Below are positions 11,722 through 19,763 of a DNA stretch of 41,558 nucleotides, piece after piece. The stretch's first letter is position 1. The number at the start of each line of letters is the position of its first letter. Under the pieces are notes generated by a model. The model was not told where the DNA came from. It saw only the letters and a list, made by a program, of their open reading frames with translations, and did not search any database. Made by a program: the position numbers and the translations under genes. Origin of the DNA: Candidatus Krumholzibacteriota bacterium. GTDB taxonomy: Bacteria > Krumholzibacteriota > Krumholzibacteriia > JAJRXK01. Where the stretch lies: NCBI GenBank assembly GCA_024276305.1, contig JAJRXK010000053.1, forward strand, positions 1-41,558. Reading direction: 5' to 3'.

Positions 11722-11823
11722 GCTCCGCGCTACCACCGATCTCCAGAGATCGAGTCCCCAGCCTTGCCAAACACTCCGTGACGGGTGTTCCAAGGTTGCA
11801 CTCATCCCTCTCGGAGGTCTGTC

Positions 11824-14800
11824 ATGTCTCAGCACCACTCTCGTGTTCTCGCCCGGCGGCCGGCCGGGATCCTTCTCTGCCTTCTGGCGATCATCATGGG
11901 CGCGACGGCATTCGCACCGCCGGCCCCTGCGGCCTGGTCCAACGGCAACTGGACCGAAGTCTTCACCTCCTCCACCGATATCCAGCGGCTGGTCGTGTCC
12001 TCCGACGCCAACGGTGGCACGCTCGCCATGATCATCAACTCCGAAACCTATCCCGCGCGGGGACGGGTCTCGAGGCTCTCGCGTACGGGCACGGAGCTCT
12101 GGGGGACCGAAGGGATCCAAGTCCCCTTCGACATCGCGACTTCCAACCAGGAAGTCCCCATCGCGGTGGCTCCGGACGGGACCGGAGGTTCGTACATCGT
12201 GTGGGCGGAGGCGATCCCTCCGGTCTACGAACGCCTGCGTCTGAGCCGCTTGGACGCCAATGGCACCTTCCTCTGGTTCGTGACCATCGCCGCCATCTCC
12301 AACGACATCGGCCAGGCGGGGGCGATGCTGGTCCTCGAGCCCGGAGTCGGGGTCACGGTGGGTTATGTGGACGCGGGACTCCCGCACGTGTTGCGCGCTC
12401 AGCGCTACGATCCCAACGGCGCCCTGCTCTGGGCCACCGACGTCAACACCTACTACGAGCACAACATCGCGCTCGGGGCCTCAGGGCCGATGACTCAATT
12501 CGACATGCAATCCGATGGCCAAGGGGGCGTCCTCTTCAGCTGGCTGCGCTGGGATCCCATCGCCTTCCAGAACTACGGCTGGAAGGAAATGCAGATCGGG
12601 GTCCAACGCATCGACAGCACCGGTCAGCGGATGTGGGGAAATGACGGCCACCTGGTCTGGGATACCAACAACTTCTTGGAGCTCTGGGCCTACCAGGCCA
12701 AGGTCACTCCGGACGGTGGTGGCGGCGCCTTCGTGGTGACCTCCGGAGGTTCCAAGGCCTATGCCCAGCACGTCTCCGCGGCCGGTTCCGACCTGTGGGC
12801 CTCGGGCGGAATCATGGTGCAATCCGCGAGCACCTGGGGCCAGTCGACCGATCCGCAGATCTGCTCGGACCAGACCGGAGGATTCATCCTCATACAGGCG
12901 TTGACCACGATCTACGCCCAACGCGTGGACGGAGCGGGCACCTTGCTGTGGGGTCCCAACGGCATCGTGGCTGCAGCGCCCAGCTCTACCCAAGAAAACT
13001 ACAGTGGCCCCTCCCTCGCTCCCGATGGATTCGGTGGCGCGGTCGTGGGCTACCGACGCTGGGACAATGGAGCCGAATCCGTGGGCGGTCTGCGTCTCGA
13101 TGCCTTCGGCAACCTGCTCTGGGCGAACGAGATGCTCTTCAGCGCGACGGGAACCGACGGGGTTCTGGACGTTCATGTCGTCGCCGATGGAATCGGGGGC
13201 GCCAAATACGTCTGGAAGCGCCGCGTCCCCGGACCGCCGCGCAAGGACGACGTCTACGCCCTCGGAGTCAACGGTCAAGGTCTCACCCCCGACCCCATGC
13301 TCTACGGCCTGGTCCCCGACGCGGGCGAACCCGGCGACATCCTCCCCACCCTGCTCTTCGGCGACTACATCGACGAGACCTTCGGCTACGAACTCCGTCA
13401 CGGTCCCACCGTCATTCCCTTCACCGGCGTCGCCGCGATCAATCCCGGCCTCGTCGGAGGATGGCTGGACCTGAGCGGAGCACCCCTCGGCGCCTGGGAC
13501 CTCTTCGCCACCCAGGGAGGAGCGGATCGCGCGAGCCTGGCCGACGCCTTCGGCGTCGGACTACGGCCGGGGTGTACCCTCGAAATGGACGCGGTGCGAT
13601 TCCAGACCGTCGAGAGCTTCGGCACCGCTCGCAAGATGCACTTCGGCTCCGACGGTCAGGTCGGATTCGCATACATGTTCTACAACAGCGGGACGAACGA
13701 ACAGCTCATCTACGGAGGCACCCGAGACGACGACAGCATGGGCACCGGCTTGGTGGAGGTGTCTCCGGGGAACGTCCTGAGCGACCTGGCCTTCACCGTC
13801 GATTCTCTCGACCGAAGCACCTTCGCCTACATCCGCAATGGGAATACGCTGGTGAGCCACACCTACGACTGGACGAACGGGGGCCTGGTGCCCTCCCTCA
13901 CGATCGATCAAGTCTTCAGCACTCCCCTTCGCCGTCCAGTGATCGTTCCGATGAACAACGGTCTGACCCGCATCGTGGTCGAGGCGGACAACGCTGGAGT
14001 CGCCGAACTGTGGGAAGCCTGGGACGACGGCTCCGGTCTCAACGCGCATCCGATCCCGCAGACCGGAATCAATGCCCACGATGTCGACCTCGCTCCGACC
14101 GAAGACGGGCTCGCGATGGTCTACCTCCGCGACAGCTGGTTTCCGGGAGTGAGCGAGCTCTGCCTCCAACACTTCCGCAACGGAGCCTGGGAAGCCCCGG
14201 TCGTCCTCACCTTTGCGCTCTCCCTGCAGAGCCCGACGGTGGCCTCCGACCGGGCGGGCGGGGTCCTGGTGGCTTGGATTCTCGACAACTCGGGGAATGG
14301 CTCGGCGCCGCTGTTGCAGACGACCTTGGTCACCAACGACGTCGTGGGGCCGATCCGCACTCGGGCCACCGCTGGAACCATTCTGCGCGTACAGGTCGAC
14401 GCCCAAGGTCCACAACGCTACTTCATGATGACTCAGGAAACCGGACAGCCCATGCAGATCTTCTTGCGCGGAGGCGACGGGAATGTCTTCTACCCCACGC
14501 AACGACTGAACTCCGACGATGACACGGATTGGCCCAGCTTCGCGGCGCAATACGGAGGTCTGCGCGTCGCGGCCATGTGGCAGACCTACAACAGCCCGAG
14601 CTTCGGCGATGCCCTCTTGACCTGGTTCTGCCGATCCGGAGTGATGACCGCTGTGCCCGACGGAACCCCCACCGTCGCTCTGTCGAAAGTGCAGGCCGTC
14701 CCCAATCCCTTCAATCCGAGAACTCGGTTGGAGTTCGAGCTCTCGACTTCGCAGTGGGTGAAGGTCGCGATCTTCGATAGCCGAGGCCGGCGCGTCCGCT

Positions 14801-14955
14801 TGCTCCACGACGCCACCCTCAGCGGCGGGCCGCAATCGCTGGAATTCGACGGCCGGGACGACACCGGATCACCCCTCGCCTCGGGAGTCTACTTCGCGCA
14901 ACTACGCCCGTCTCTCGATGCGCCGGGAGTGGTGAAACTCACCCTGCTGAAGTAG
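11824..14955 (+). CDS. secreted beta-propeller protein with FlgD-like C-terminal sorting domain
   Basis: A 1043-residue exported protein. It has a signal peptide (AGILLCLLAIIMGATAFAPP, about 14-33). Seven evenly spaced Gly-x-x-Leu-Trp motifs (GTELWG, GTFLWF, GALLWA, GQRMWG, GSDLWA, GTLLWG, GNLLWA) between about residues 75 and 450 suggest a seven-bladed propeller. A long beta-rich part follows, and the C-terminal Ig-like domain (about 955-1043) starts VPNPFNPRTRLEFELS and ends GVYFAQLRP. That tail is the FlgD-like or T9SS-type sorting domain seen on secreted proteins of FCB-related bacteria. The start is ATG 11824 with GGAGGT (11813-11818). A GTG at 11785 in the same frame is rejected. The last 17 bases overlap the convergent CHAT gene. 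Confidence 0.85.
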   Translation: MSQHHSRVLARRPAGILLCLLAIIMGATAFAPPAPAAWSNGNWTEVFTSSTDIQRLVVSSDANGGTLAMIINSETYPARGRVSRLSRTGTELWGTEGIQVPFDIATSNQEVPIAVAPDGTGGSYIVWAEAIPPVYERLRLSRLDANGTFLWFVTIAAISNDIGQAGAMLVLEPGVGVTVGYVDAGLPHVLRAQRYDPNGALLWATDVNTYYEHNIALGASGPMTQFDMQSDGQGGVLFSWLRWDPIAFQNYGWKEMQIGVQRIDSTGQRMWGNDGHLVWDTNNFLELWAYQAKVTPDGGGGAFVVTSGGSKAYAQHVSAAGSDLWASGGIMVQSASTWGQSTDPQICSDQTGGFILIQALTTIYAQRVDGAGTLLWGPNGIVAAAPSSTQENYSGPSLAPDGFGGAVVGYRRWDNGAESVGGLRLDAFGNLLWANEMLFSATGTDGVLDVHVVADGIGGAKYVWKRRVPGPPRKDDVYALGVNGQGLTPDPMLYGLVPDAGEPGDILPTLLFGDYIDETFGYELRHGPTVIPFTGVAAINPGLVGGWLDLSGAPLGAWDLFATQGGADRASLADAFGVGLRPGCTLEMDAVRFQTVESFGTARKMHFGSDGQVGFAYMFYNSGTNEQLIYGGTRDDDSMGTGLVEVSPGNVLSDLAFTVDSLDRSTFAYIRNGNTLVSHTYDWTNGGLVPSLTIDQVFSTPLRRPVIVPMNNGLTRIVVEADNAGVAELWEAWDDGSGLNAHPIPQTGINAHDVDLAPTEDGLAMVYLRDSWFPGVSELCLQHFRNGAWEAPVVLTFALSLQSPTVASDRAGGVLVAWILDNSGNGSAPLLQTTLVTNDVVGPIRTRATAGTILRVQVDAQGPQRYFMMTQETGQPMQIFLRGGDGNVFYPTQRLNSDDDTDWPSFAAQYGGLRVAAMWQTYNSPSFGDALLTWFCRSGVMTAVPDGTPTVALSKVQAVPNPFNPRTRLEFELSTSQWVKVAIFDSRGRRVRLLHDATLSGGPQSLEFDGRDDTGSPLASGVYFAQLRPSLDAPGVVKLTLLK

Positions 14956-17900
14956 TCGACGCCCGGTGGCGAAGAAGGGCGGCGATGGCCAACAGGATGG
15001 TGCTGAGACCAAACCAGAGCCATGCCGTCCGAGGGGCGCGGCGCATCTCGAGAGGGATGCGCTGCGCTCCGTCTCCCATCACCGACCACGCCGCCCAGTA
15101 GAAGGGCTCGGCGGTCGCGGGCCGTCGCATGAGTTCCAACTGAGTCTGGCGCAGCGCCGCCCCCACGCTCTCTCCCTCCGCCAGTCGACGATAGATCCGC
15201 GCGCTCGTCCAGGACGCAAGCTCATCGTCCACACTCCACGCCGTCGCGAGCACGGCCCGGCTGCCGGCGTCCAAGAGGGTCTGCGCGAAACTCTCTCGGG
15301 AGGAATGCAACACCGCATCCTCGCGCCGAGCGGTCTCACAGGCGGCCAGGGTGACCAGGTCATGGTCGATCCGCAGTCGGCTCAGATCGGCCTGCTGCAG
15401 GAACGGCTTGGCCGTCGAGGCATTCCACTCCCGGCCGCTCGCATAGAGCCCCGAACGCCAGGCCCGCCGCTCATCGAAAAAACCATGACTGTCGAAGTGG
15501 AGGACCCGCGACCGGGGCCATCGCCGGGGACGAGAGTCGGAAGAGGCGAAGGAAGAGGGCGGAAGGCGACGGCTGCGCCGGAACACAGTTGCGATCGAAG
15601 CCCTCGACTCCGTTCCCGCAAGCGAATCGTCGACGGCACAAACCACGAGGTCGAAGTCGAAGGCTCGCTCCGACCGCGGCCTCTCCCGCGCCGCGAACCA
15701 TGCAGCCAGGGAGGTCACCCGCTGCACCGCGGCGACCTCGATGAGACGGGGCGCGCCCTTCCATCCTTCCATCCGGAGCGCAGTGAAGGCCAGGTCGGAG
15801 AGTGCGCCATCGGCGGCGATCACCAAGGTGCCCCTCTCCTCGTCCTCCGTCCACCACGGTGGCAAGAGCGCCCGACCGACCTTCGAGGCGAGGCGTCGCT
15901 CGGCCTCGGCTTCGCCATCGCTCCGAGGGGGTCGGCGCAGGAGTTCCTTCCACAGGCCGATCTGCCGACGCAGTCGATCCTCCTCCGCGATTCGGTCCAG
16001 GTGCAGCCTTCCATCGCGATCGATGAGAATGCGGAGCAACCCCACTCCCTCGGGACCGATCCGGGGAGGTCCGAGGACATAGGAGATCAGGGTGAAGTCG
16101 CCCGCCGCCGCTTCGCGCAATCTCTCCAGAGAGGGGATCAAGGGAGCCAGATGCCTCGCGCGGTCCGGCGAGACCTCGGCCACCGCTCGGCGGAGAGCCT
16201 GCAACGCGGTCTCCGCTTCGGCGAGCTCGAGACGCAGCGCGGCAGGGCTCTCGGCCTGGGCCTGGATCTGTAGCTCTTCGACCCTTCGATGCAGCTGAGA
16301 CTCGACCGTCAACAGGGAATCGACCTCCGCGCTCGCCCTTTCCGGCTCCCGCCGATCCACGCCGACTCTCTCGACCCGCGTGTGGAAGTCCATGGCCAGG
16401 CGCAGCAGCTCCTCGAGCTGTGCCCCGGGGTCTCGGGATGCCGCAGAACTTTCGTAGAGGACCCGCATGGCGGTGCAGAGCGCGCGATCTTCGGCCGAAC
16501 GATCCACGACCTGCGCACCGGACTCTCCCCGCGCCAGGCTCCACCGTCGCACCGATTCTCGCGCCCACTCTCTCGCCTCTTCGTGCCGACCGCTGCGCGA
16601 GAGGAGATCCGCTCTCGCACAGGCCACCGAAGCGGCCGGGGCGAGCCGCGTCAGATCCTGGGCCAGACTCTCTGCGACCACGGTGGTCCGCAGGGCCTGT
16701 TCCACCTCTCCCAGTCGAAACTGGAGGTCGGCCAGTCGAATCAGGGTGGGAACTCTCGGACCTCGGCCTCCCCGCACTCGTTGGAGGGAATCGGCGCTGG
16801 CCAACCAACCCCGAGCCTGGGGCAGATTCCCCTGGCGTTGGGCAACCCGTCCGGACCAGGCCAGGGCATTGGAGAGCACATCGAGATTGCCCTGGCGCCG
16901 GGCTGCGGATCGGGCCCGGCCGAGGAGTTGGGCCGCGAGATCGAGCTGCGCCTCGTCCGCCAGCACCATCGCCAGATTGATCGTGGGCGAGAGGCGCAAA
17001 CGCCCCCGACTTTCGGACAACTCCACTGCGGTCCGGAAAAACTCTCGAGCCTGCTCGCTCTCTCCGAGTTGCAGGCAGGCCAGACCCAAGTTGTTCAGGA
17101 CATCCAGTTCTCCCTCGCCATCACCCTGCTCTCGATCGAGATCGAGGAGGTCGCGGTAGATCTCGACCGCCCGGTCCGGACGCCCCCGTCGATCTTCGAG
17201 GACTGCGACATTGTTCAAGAGCATCCGGCGCTGACCGGCATCGCCTCGGGCCTCGGCCAGATCCAGTCCGCGCCGGTAGGACCGAGACGCGCGCTCCCAG
17301 TCGCCGACATGAAAGAAGGCGACGCCCAGATTGTTCTCGGTCTGCGCCTCCCCCCATCGATTCCCCGAATTCCGCCAGAGATCCCGGGCCTGCGCCGAGA
17401 GCTCGACGGCCTCGTCATGGGCCCCCACCTGATCGAGGTCCCAACCCTGGCCCATCGCGGCATAGGCCCAGGCGATGCTGTCCTCGGTCGCCGCGAAGTG
17501 CTCCACCGCGGGAGCCCTCACCGCGACCGCTTCGGCATAACGATGCTGAGCCTCGAGCAGCAGGGCCAGGTAGCTGCGGGAGAGCCCCGCGCTCCGCCTC
17601 GCCCCCACCGAATCGGCGAGGGAGATGCACTCCCGGTACAGCCTCTCCGCCTCCGCGGCCGAGGCCTGCCGCTGCTTCAGACGAGCGGCCAACAGCAGAG
17701 CCCGGACCTCGGTCCAAGCCAGGCGAGGCCGATCCAGCTTCCAGTCTCGACGCCACGTCGGCGAGAGCTCGGCGCCCCGCCGGACCCCGAGCAACTTCGT
17801 CCGCAAGGCCAGGAACTGACGGAGGACGGGCGAAGGTACCCGGGCCCGCACCGCACCGAGTTCATCGCTCCACGCTTCGAGACTCTCGGGCGCGGCCCGG

Positions 17901-18367
17901 CCGAGACGGAGACGCTCGTAGAGGAGAACCCACCGATCCACGGGGTCGGTCGGGTCGAGAGCGGCACGACCGAGGTAGTGGGCGGCCACCGCCTCTCGCC
18001 CGGTGGACCGGGCCACCACCGCCCGACCGAAGTCGAGCTGCCCCTCGGGCACGATCGAGGAGAGCGAGTCGAGGAATGCCCGAGCGCGAGCGACACCCTC
18101 GCGCTCGACGGTCAACTCGGTGCAGAGCCAGAGAAGGGCGAGGGACCGGGGTGCGGCCCGGCTGGCGGCCCGAACCCTCGGAAGGGCGCCGGCCAGGTCC
18201 TGGTCCTCCGCCTGGGCGAGCCCTCGGACCATGGATTCTGTGACCGACGCAGAGGAGTCCGAAGCTCCCATGGTCAGGACGGCGATCACCAAAGCGAGGA
18301 TTGAGAACGACCACCTGCTCGGGGCGCAGCACCGATCGCCGCTCGCGTTGGATCCGTCCACTTCCAT
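14939..18367 (-). CDS. membrane-anchored TPR-CHAT putative cysteine protease
   Basis: A 1142-residue protein. An N-terminal signal or anchor (FSILALVIAVLTMGA, about 21-35) is followed by many tetratricopeptide repeats (about 40-620; for example RWGEAQTENNLGVAFFHVGD and GELDVLNNLGLACLQLGE). A coiled-coil-like linker (about 690-750) leads to a C-terminal CHAT domain (caspase-like, about 770-1100). The catalytic pair is visible: His in HFDSHG (about 961) and Cys in LAACETA (about 1010), with the usual AVLATAWSVDDELAS after it. A final hydrophobic helix (WLWFGLSTILLAIAALL, about 1116-1132) and a short basic tail suggest a second membrane anchor, placing TPR and CHAT outside the cytoplasm. It is divergent from an ECF sigma/anti-sigma pair 110 bases away, so a role in that regulatory circuit is likely. 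The substrate is unknown. Confidence 0.85.
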   Translation of the reverse strand: MEVDGSNASGDRCCAPSRWSFSILALVIAVLTMGASDSSASVTESMVRGLAQAEDQDLAGALPRVRAASRAAPRSLALLWLCTELTVEREGVARARAFLDSLSSIVPEGQLDFGRAVVARSTGREAVAAHYLGRAALDPTDPVDRWVLLYERLRLGRAAPESLEAWSDELGAVRARVPSPVLRQFLALRTKLLGVRRGAELSPTWRRDWKLDRPRLAWTEVRALLLAARLKQRQASAAEAERLYRECISLADSVGARRSAGLSRSYLALLLEAQHRYAEAVAVRAPAVEHFAATEDSIAWAYAAMGQGWDLDQVGAHDEAVELSAQARDLWRNSGNRWGEAQTENNLGVAFFHVGDWERASRSYRRGLDLAEARGDAGQRRMLLNNVAVLEDRRGRPDRAVEIYRDLLDLDREQGDGEGELDVLNNLGLACLQLGESEQAREFFRTAVELSESRGRLRLSPTINLAMVLADEAQLDLAAQLLGRARSAARRQGNLDVLSNALAWSGRVAQRQGNLPQARGWLASADSLQRVRGGRGPRVPTLIRLADLQFRLGEVEQALRTTVVAESLAQDLTRLAPAASVACARADLLSRSGRHEEAREWARESVRRWSLARGESGAQVVDRSAEDRALCTAMRVLYESSAASRDPGAQLEELLRLAMDFHTRVERVGVDRREPERASAEVDSLLTVESQLHRRVEELQIQAQAESPAALRLELAEAETALQALRRAVAEVSPDRARHLAPLIPSLERLREAAAGDFTLISYVLGPPRIGPEGVGLLRILIDRDGRLHLDRIAEEDRLRRQIGLWKELLRRPPRSDGEAEAERRLASKVGRALLPPWWTEDEERGTLVIAADGALSDLAFTALRMEGWKGAPRLIEVAAVQRVTSLAAWFAARERPRSERAFDFDLVVCAVDDSLAGTESRASIATVFRRSRRLPPSSFASSDSRPRRWPRSRVLHFDSHGFFDERRAWRSGLYASGREWNASTAKPFLQQADLSRLRIDHDLVTLAACETARREDAVLHSSRESFAQTLLDAGSRAVLATAWSVDDELASWTSARIYRRLAEGESVGAALRQTQLELMRRPATAEPFYWAAWSVMGDGAQRIPLEMRRAPRTAWLWFGLSTILLAIAALLRHRASTTSAG

Positions 18368-18405
18368 CCGCTACACTCGATCTTCAAGGGGGTCTTCTCG
18401 GAGTC

Positions 18406-18430
18406 TGAACGAGTCCCGGATCCTCGTCAA
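18406..18430. promoter_or_regulatory. dyad in the CHAT/sigma-factor divergent region
   Basis: TGAACGAG (18406-18413) and CTCGTCAA (18423-18430) form an imperfect inverted repeat in the middle of the 110-base region between two divergent start codons. GAAC followed after 14 bases by CGTC resembles an ECF-type promoter on either strand, although the spacing is shorter than usual. It may be an operator or an autoregulated promoter. Confidence 0.3.
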
Positions 18431-18477
18431 CTCGGTCCGGCAACTCGTCTTGCCATTCTCCGCCTTCGAGGTGTTCC

Positions 18478-19095
18478 ATGCATGAACGCCCCAAACCCGG
18501 TGTCATGGCCTCTCGAAGCGACGAGCAATTGCTATTGCTCCTCCGCGAGAAGGGCGACCGGTGGCGTGAGGCCCTGGCAGTCCTCTTCGAACGCTACCAC
18601 GCGCGGGTACTCCTGAGCTGCGAGAGGATTCTCGGGCCGGGACCCGCCGCCGAAGACGCGATGCAGGATATCTTCCTGAGCCTGATCGAAAAGGCTCAGC
18701 GATACGAGAATCGCAGGAGCTTTGGCGCGTGGTTGTTCGTGGTCACCCGCAACCACTGCCTCAATGCTCTGCGCCGGAGGAGACGAGAGGTCGACATGGA
18801 CCCTTACGAGGACTTCGTCCACGAGGCCAGCCCCGCACCGGGGCCGGCGGAGGACGCAGCAGACTACGAACTCGGAGAGCGCATCCGTCAGGCCTGTGAG
18901 GAACGCCTCTCGCCGATGGAGCGCCGGGTCGTGGATCTGCGTCTGAAGTGGGGGCTTTCGGTGAAGGATATCGACAACCTCCTCGACCTGACCAATGCCT
19001 CGGGGGCTCGGACCTACCTCAGCACGGCCAAGCGGAAACTCCGTGCCGCCCTCGCCGAGTTTTTTCCCCCGTCGACCAGAGGGGGCGGAAGTTGA
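18478..19095 (+). CDS. ECF-type RNA polymerase sigma factor
   Basis: A 205-residue sigma70-family factor with regions 2 and 4 only. Region 2 (about 25-95) contains LFERYHARVLLSCERI, AAEDAMQDIFLSLIEKA and GAWLFVVTRNHCLNALRRR. Region 4 (about 140-195) contains LSPMERRVVDLRLKWGLSVK and SGARTYLSTAKRKLRAAL, the recognition helix for the -35 element. The linker is acidic. Its TGA overlaps the TTG start of the anti-sigma gene, as expected for a coupled pair. ATG 18505 is an alternative start; 18478 has GAGGTG upstream. Confidence 0.92.
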   Translation: MHERPKPGVMASRSDEQLLLLLREKGDRWREALAVLFERYHARVLLSCERILGPGPAAEDAMQDIFLSLIEKAQRYENRRSFGAWLFVVTRNHCLNALRRRRREVDMDPYEDFVHEASPAPGPAEDAADYELGERIRQACEERLSPMERRVVDLRLKWGLSVKDIDNLLDLTNASGARTYLSTAKRKLRAALAEFFPPSTRGGGS

Positions 19096-19763
19096 GCGAC
19101 CAACGCCACATCGATCCTCTCACTCTCGCCGCCTACGCCCTGGGCGAACTCGATGCCGAAGAATCCGCCGTCCTTCGTGCGCACCTCGAGACCTGCGGCC
19201 GATGCCAGGCCGAGGCCGATCTCGCCGCCGACCACTTCCGGGTCGAGCCCAACACTCGTCTGCATCCGCGCAGCGAGAGTCTGGCCAACTCCTTCGCCCG
19301 ACGCCTGTCCCGGGAAGCCGTCCTTCCGCGGTCAGGCCCGAACGGAGGGTCCTCCCCCACGCCCGTCGCCCGCTGGCGCGGCCGCGCCTCGTGGTGGTTG
19401 GTCGCTGCCGCCGTCGTCTTCGCGGGGATCGGCCTGCGGGAGATGATGCCCGCTTCGAATGGCCCACTGCCGACGGGAGTGTTGCGCGGAGAGGGAGCTC
19501 GAGGAAGCGAAGTCCAAGTCGAGCGCGGAACCGAGTCATGGATCCTCCGTTGCCCAGAATGCGCGCCCCTGCAGAACTTGGAAGTGTCGGTGGTCGACGA
19601 CCAAGGAGAGATCGTCTTCCGCAGTCCGCTCTCTCCGGACCGATGGGAGATCCCCTTCTCGGCGGTGGGAGAGAGCCCCGACTCCACCTTGCACTTCGTC
19701 AGGATCCGGGGAGTGGATGATGCGGGAAGGCGGTGGGAGTCTCCCCCCGTGCTCCTACCCTGA
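19092..19763 (+). CDS. zinc-type transmembrane anti-sigma factor
   Basis: A 223-residue protein with a cytoplasmic ZAS-like domain (about 1-50) bearing His31-x3-Cys35-x2-Cys38 in RAHLETCGRCQAE. A proline-rich linker, one transmembrane helix (SWWLVAAAVVFAGIGL, about 100-115) and an extracytoplasmic beta-rich domain (about 125-223) follow. The latter carries a further CxxC (ILRCPECAP) and ends in a fibronectin-like pattern. By family knowledge it sequesters the sigma factor at the membrane until a signal releases it. The start is TTG 19092, overlapping the sigma-factor stop. The CxxC in the outer domain could make it redox responsive (inference). Confidence 0.82.
   Translation: MSDQRHIDPLTLAAYALGELDAEESAVLRAHLETCGRCQAEADLAADHFRVEPNTRLHPRSESLANSFARRLSREAVLPRSGPNGGSSPTPVARWRGRASWWLVAAAVVFAGIGLREMMPASNGPLPTGVLRGEGARGSEVQVERGTESWILRCPECAPLQNLEVSVVDDQGEIVFRSPLSPDRWEIPFSAVGESPDSTLHFVRIRGVDDAGRRWESPPVLLP

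Follow-up and report, generated by a model that had tools for sequence, protein, structure and literature searches.

How is an extracytoplasmic function (ECF) sigma factor released when the gene of its transmembrane (TM) anti-sigma factor lies next to that of a predicted caspase-like protease? This question is raised by a locus on contig JAJRXK010000053.1 of a Candidatus Krumholzibacteriota bacterium (assembly GCA_024276305.1), whose 41,558 nucleotides form the window analysed here. A TPR-CHAT gene (14939-18367, reverse strand) stands head to head with an ECF sigma factor gene (18478-19095, forward strand), which is followed by the gene for a zinc-binding anti-sigma (ZAS) factor (19092-19763, forward strand). 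We consider it probable (approximately 0.68) that the three genes form a transmembrane switch, in which the CHAT protein would be a dedicated site-1 protease that cuts the anti-sigma factor after Arg132, with RseP then freeing the sigma factor.

In the proposed mechanism, the ZAS zinc domain of the anti-sigma factor would keep the sigma factor bound on the cytoplasmic side of the membrane, in which the TPR-CHAT protein would also be anchored, with its protease domain exposed on the outer side. A signal sensed by the TPR part would activate the CHAT domain, and His961 and Cys1010 would cut the anti-sigma factor after Arg132 in its flexible juxtamembrane linker (VLR/GEG). The trimmed protein would then be cut in the membrane by RseP, releasing the sigma factor. 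Contact between the two proteins, cleavage at Arg132, the sequence of steps and the signal are inferred. The genome contains an M50 site-2 protease gene (G000:C75, 8.3e-70), as is expected of ECF systems controlled by regulated intramembrane proteolysis.

Domain composition and predicted topology

The CHAT gene encodes a protein of 1,142 residues that is predicted to be a membrane-anchored extracytoplasmic caspase-like protease, based on the open reading frame (ORF), Pfam, the orthologues and Foldseek. An N-terminal hydrophobic segment (aa ~18-33/36, 18269-18316; detected by hydropathy and a helix in the model) represents a signal peptide or signal anchor. It precedes a TPR superhelix (aa ~237-615, 16523-17659), presumably the sensor or partner-binding part, which was recognized by Pfam and modelled by AF2 as helix hairpins of mostly high predicted local distance difference test (pLDDT) values. 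The CHAT domain (aa 825-1099, 15071-15895) matches PF12770 with an E-value of 1.5e-29 (103.8 bits against a cut-off of 24), and its conserved motifs contain the catalytic His961 (codon 15485-15487) and Cys1010 (codon 15338-15340), both invariant in an alignment of 20 CHAT sequences. Hydropathy also identifies a C-terminal TM anchor (aa ~1113-1132, 14972-15031) followed by RHR, the predicted cytoplasmic end. The background for these two end segments is low, because hydrophobic segments occur in TPR cores at only ~0.006 per 100 aa. The CHAT domain, lying between the N-terminal signal/TM segment and the C-terminal TM segment, is thus predicted to be extracytoplasmic. The preliminary description had read the locus as a TPR-CHAT protein with an intact His/Cys pair and a hydrophobic segment at each end, 110 bp from the sigma gene, with protease and anti-sigma sensor on the same side of the membrane; the coordinates and the predicted topology agree with all of these points.

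The AF2 model of the CHAT protein (mean pLDDT 67) contains a TPR superhelix and a caspase-like fold. Its top Foldseek match is human separase bound to SCC1, with DdvA at rank 2/4 and Csx29 also among the best matches, and the best hidden Markov model match of the CHAT profile is DdvA. The protein is predicted to have protease activity.

The sigma factor (205 aa) matches Sigma70_r2 of Pfam and TIGR02937 over its full length (positions 1-165/165, 81.2 bits); it is of the ECF type and contains regions 2 and 4 only. The anti-sigma factor (223 aa) most likely starts at the TTG at 19092, which overlaps the TGA stop codon of the sigma gene (TTGA), and the longer ORF from 18948 is most likely a frame extension. 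Therefore, the earlier assignment of an ECF sigma factor and a ZAS anti-sigma factor with one TM helix and an outer beta domain is retained, but the gene start is moved from 18948 to 19092. The anti-sigma factor matches zf-HC2 (32.4 bits against a cut-off of 22.2) and, below threshold, the general anti-sigma model NF052375 of NCBIfam, and it has a PDB match to the ZAS domain of ChrR. It carries the zinc motif HLETCGRC (H31, C35 and C38; 19182-19205), a single TM helix (aa 97-118, 19380-19445; AF2 and hydropathy) and an outer FN3-like beta domain (aa 142-223, 19515-19760), for which Foldseek returned mostly FN3 folds with weak E-values (best 1.8e-3). The zinc motif, the gene overlap with sigma and the TM helix are those of Class I ZAS proteins. 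The AF2 model (mean pLDDT 76) consists of a zinc helical bundle, the TM helix, a low-confidence segment (residues 125-136) and the beta domain from residue 142. The protein is predicted to bind and inhibit the sigma factor.

Linkage of CHAT and ECF genes and the common linker arginine

This genome contains 11 CHAT genes and about 20 sigma-70 genes (profile search, with two sigma genes found in loci), and for 9 of the 11 CHAT genes an ECF gene is found no more than 1 kb away. The chance for a random gene to lie within this distance is ~0.033, which gives P ~2.5e-12 for 9/11. Among relatives chosen by CHAT similarity alone, an ECF gene was present within 1 kb in 27 of 39 and 25 of 41 unique CHAT loci. 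The trio recurs in Krumholzibacteriota, Latescibacterota, Aminicenantes and Bacteroidota, and this cross-phylum linkage, together with the statistics from the genome itself, rules out a chance neighbourhood. The CHAT gene may be divergent from, upstream of, downstream of or convergent with the other two, and these four relative orientations across phyla indicate that the linkage outlives rearrangement. Two other genomes of this family, G002 and G003, encode orthologues of this CHAT protein (46% and 32% identical, respectively) and retain the divergent layout and ZAS/TM anti-sigma factors. A convergent layout, in which the CHAT gene faces the anti-sigma and sigma genes, is found in Bacteroidota (Winogradskyella, Aquimarina, Maribacter and others), and cultured Flavobacteriaceae of these three named genera carry the trio. 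The neighbourhood is therefore conserved in relatives over several phyla, as the preliminary description had required. In some Aminicenantes and Bacteroidota (L106, L153 and L111), two CHAT genes flank a single sigma/anti-sigma pair. One genome of the same family (G003) contains >20 CHAT genes, which represents a large lineage expansion; 14 of these genes belong to the ECF-linked loci of the co-divergence test described below.

CHAT and sigma distances are correlated, with r = 0.82 for locus pairs within one genome; the best of 1,000 within-genome reassignments reached 0.66. Compartments also match: exported CHATs pair with TM anti-sigma factors, and CHATs without a signal or TM segment pair with soluble ZAS proteins. 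Depending on the threshold, 44-48 pairs are exported/TM, 7-9 are cytosolic/soluble and 4-6 are off-diagonal; however, this match amounts to approximately one switch on the CHAT tree, and the p-values overstate independence. We therefore do not count it as independent statistical evidence, and the pattern, although striking, is consistent with action on the same side rather than strong proof of it. In the cytosolic class (L012, L015, L171, L175, L176, L178 and L189), the CHAT gene is accompanied by genes for an ECF sigma factor and a ZAS protein of the soluble type, often with an adjacent subtilase gene in an ECF54-like arrangement. In this ZAS protein, a [DS][VMI]R[GA]-like motif separates the zinc domain from the C-terminal beta domain.

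The anti-sigma linkers contain a feature that looks like a cut site. Among 14 aligned anti-sigma factors, the only invariant columns are C35, C38 and R132. Arg132 (codon 19485-19487) lies in the juxtamembrane linker GVLR/GEG (19476-19496, forward strand), outside the TM helix and within the segment 125-136 of pLDDT <50, and the linker is presumably disordered. The peptide spanning the candidate cut R132/G133 is PTGVLRGEGARG. An Arg is aligned in 32/32 linked anti-sigma factors of the group of this locus and is present in 20/20 Bacteroidota anti-sigma factors despite their unrelated TPR-like outer domain. In outer linkers, a small residue comes directly after the Arg, as in VLRG (Krumholzibacteriota), YRGT (Aminicenantes) and PIVRGE or TITRSD (Bacteroidota), and the soluble anti-sigma factors of cytosolic CHATs contain DVRG/DMRG. 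Separase, gingipain-R and MALT1, which belong to clan CD as CHAT does, cleave after Arg (PMC4626109).

For comparison, 40 anti-sigma loci of the same genomes were picked by zf-HC2 blind to the linker; 34 were usable, and the stretches retrieved for these contained no CHAT gene. At a distance of up to 45 residues from the TM helix, the motif [LIVMFWYT]R[GSATD] was present in 68 of 80 CHAT-linked anti-sigma factors (0.36 in shuffled sequences) versus 13 of 34 unlinked ones (0.33 in shuffled sequences), with a p-value of 2e-6 that is inflated by the relatedness of the sequences and refers to a motif worded after the linked set, but not the controls, had been seen. Where the gap was <1 kb, 65 of 74 linked anti-sigma factors had the motif, and the narrower [LVMIWYT]RG was found in 46/80 linked versus 3/34 unlinked sequences. 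Lys, Asp and Glu versions were not significantly enriched in linked relative to unlinked anti-sigma factors. In addition, no other partner protein with an RG linker was found beside the 32 exported CHATs that have no ECF gene nearby (0/32). The juxtamembrane Arg common to CHAT-linked anti-sigma factors is a new observation. The earlier proposal that a membrane TPR-CHAT acts as a site-1-type protease on the anti-sigma factor thus gains from linkage, topology, dyad and conserved Arg, at which a cut would occur; the site itself, which had been placed in the outer domain, is likelier to be the juxtamembrane linker than that folded domain.

Alternative explanations

The CHAT gene could instead be a target of the sigma factor: another protease would free the sigma factor, which would then induce CHAT to act as an effector on the envelope or in cell death. 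Divergent or co-directional neighbours of ECF genes are often their targets, and CHAT proteins can act as executioners. The 110-bp spacer between the CHAT and sigma starts (18368-18477) contains GTCAAC (18426-18431) and TTGCCA (18450-18455), both of which are present upstream of sigma in all three orthologous spacers with variable spacing between GTCAAC and the second element; they may constitute an ECF promoter. However, GTCAAC is oriented towards the sigma gene, and none of the three spacers showed a mirror copy pointing towards CHAT. Moreover, the convergent Bacteroidota layouts would be odd for a shared promoter, and neither the conserved Arg nor the matching compartments nor the co-divergence of CHAT and sigma would be predicted. 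We regard this explanation as unlikely.

CHAT might also bind the anti-sigma factor as a sensor or scaffold without cutting, with the Arg as a binding element. Three Gemmatimonadota members (L108, L118 and L159), in which Tyr replaces His961, fit this explanation in that they retain the trio and an Arg; their anti-sigma linkers contain a conserved HRAP instead of LRG, and protease activity may have been lost or the mechanism changed in them. In ECF-linked CHATs as a whole, however, His is retained in 103/106 and Cys in 105/106 (the sequence without Cys is truncated), and 102 of 105 complete proteins have both catalytic residues. The loss of the catalytic pair in most orthologues, which would have spoken against the protease reading, is thus not observed. 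This conservation and the position of the Arg in a presumably disordered linker make binding alone improbable.

Least probable of all, a general site-1 protease such as DegS, Prc or signal peptidase, on which many anti-sigma factors rely in common, would cut the Arg linker with CHAT merely activating or presenting it, but unlinked anti-sigma factors from these genomes, to which such proteases would also be available, show the Arg motif at no more than the background rate. The role of signal peptidase as a site-1 protease for an anti-sigma factor has been described (PMC8844934).

Several observations weigh against cleavage by CHAT itself. The 32 exported CHATs without an ECF gene nearby imply that CHATs also have other roles. 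Csx29 cuts its substrate Csx30 at 427-429, in a loop without an essential residue (PMC10028731), and Arg specificity is thus not general for TPR-CHAT proteases. To these are added the Gemmatimonadota members lacking His961, the low mean pLDDT of the CHAT model, the nearly single switch behind the compartment match, and the relatedness of the sequences and the late choice of wording in the motif comparison.

Relation to known systems and surrounding genes

The closest known system is DdvA/DdvS of Myxococcus xanthus, in which an ECF sigma factor is likewise held by a zinc-containing TM anti-sigma factor with an outer TPR-CHAT part (PDB 8rot and 8rw5). DdvA joins the anti-sigma factor and TPR-CHAT in one polypeptide, whereas they are encoded by separate genes here; the proposed kind of switch is therefore not wholly new. 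The active site of DdvA is said to be incomplete, and a mechanism of autoproteolysis in trans, with RseP acting next, was reportedly proposed. The CHAT protein of this locus differs in having an intact dyad and a C-terminal anchor, and the anti-sigma factor carries an FN3-like domain and an Arg linker of its own. Among ~160 CHAT ORFs scanned, no DdvA-like fusion was found. The present system is thus a split, three-gene version of the DdvA type with an intact dyad. DdvS controls a CBASS-CRISPR island (PMC12288465).

In type III-E CRISPR systems, the TPR-CHAT protein Csx29 cuts Csx30, the inhibitor of the ECF-type CASP-sigma (PMC10028731), which resembles the action proposed here. However, Csx29 is cytosolic, RNA-activated and dependent on Cas7-11, and Csx30 is not a ZAS TM protein. 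None of the seven neighbouring proteins at this locus matched a CRISPR effector, and the neighbouring Cas7-11/CRISPR genes of a type III-E Craspase are not seen among them. ECF54 loci contain CHAT, subtilase and carboxypeptidase genes beside the ECF gene, and control by proteolysis has been proposed (PMC8999054). They were described without an anti-sigma factor, whereas this locus encodes a TM anti-sigma factor and has no subtilase near the CHAT gene. The cytosolic CHAT-ECF loci do fit the ECF54 context, with a subtilase gene beside 9 of 20 compared with 2 of 80 exported ones, though many also have a soluble ZAS protein. Finally, RseA/DegS/RseP shares the TM anti-sigma factor, the juxtamembrane cut on the outside (predicted here) and the subsequent site-2 protease, but its site-1 enzyme is a serine PDZ protease that is not gene-paired with a single anti-sigma factor.

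No description of a three-gene CHAT/sigma/anti-sigma module was found in the literature searched. The separate CHAT gene in a trio with ECF and TM anti-sigma genes over several phyla and the conserved linker Arg are new relative to these systems and well supported by the comparison. More broadly, there may be a multi-phylum family of caspase-like site-1 proteases, each with its own ECF/anti-sigma pair and cutting after one linker Arg, comprising an extracytoplasmic form (this locus, Krumholzibacteriota, Latescibacterota, Aminicenantes and Bacteroidota) and a cytosolic form cutting soluble anti-sigma factors at DVRG; we see the chances of this generalization as evenly balanced. Physiological substrates are known for few bacterial CHAT proteins. 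If the generalization is true, a large share of bacterial CHATs in several phyla would be signal-gated, Arg-specific, sigma-releasing proteases, and proteolysis of the separase/caspase type would gain a broad signalling role in bacteria beyond CRISPR and the fused DdvA. The single candidate Arg makes cleavage testable by one substitution.

PADLOC gave no specific match for the trio to a defence system of known type, and no plasmid match pointing to plasmid spread of the anti-sigma factor was obtained. The gene at 11785-14955 is convergent with the CHAT gene, sharing 17 bp with it at its 3' end (14939-14955), and its product is a secreted protein whose C-terminal domain weakly resembles FlgD-Ig. 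At the contig end (40613-41558), two ORFs resemble orfA/orfB of IS3-type transposases, as read from the sequence only.

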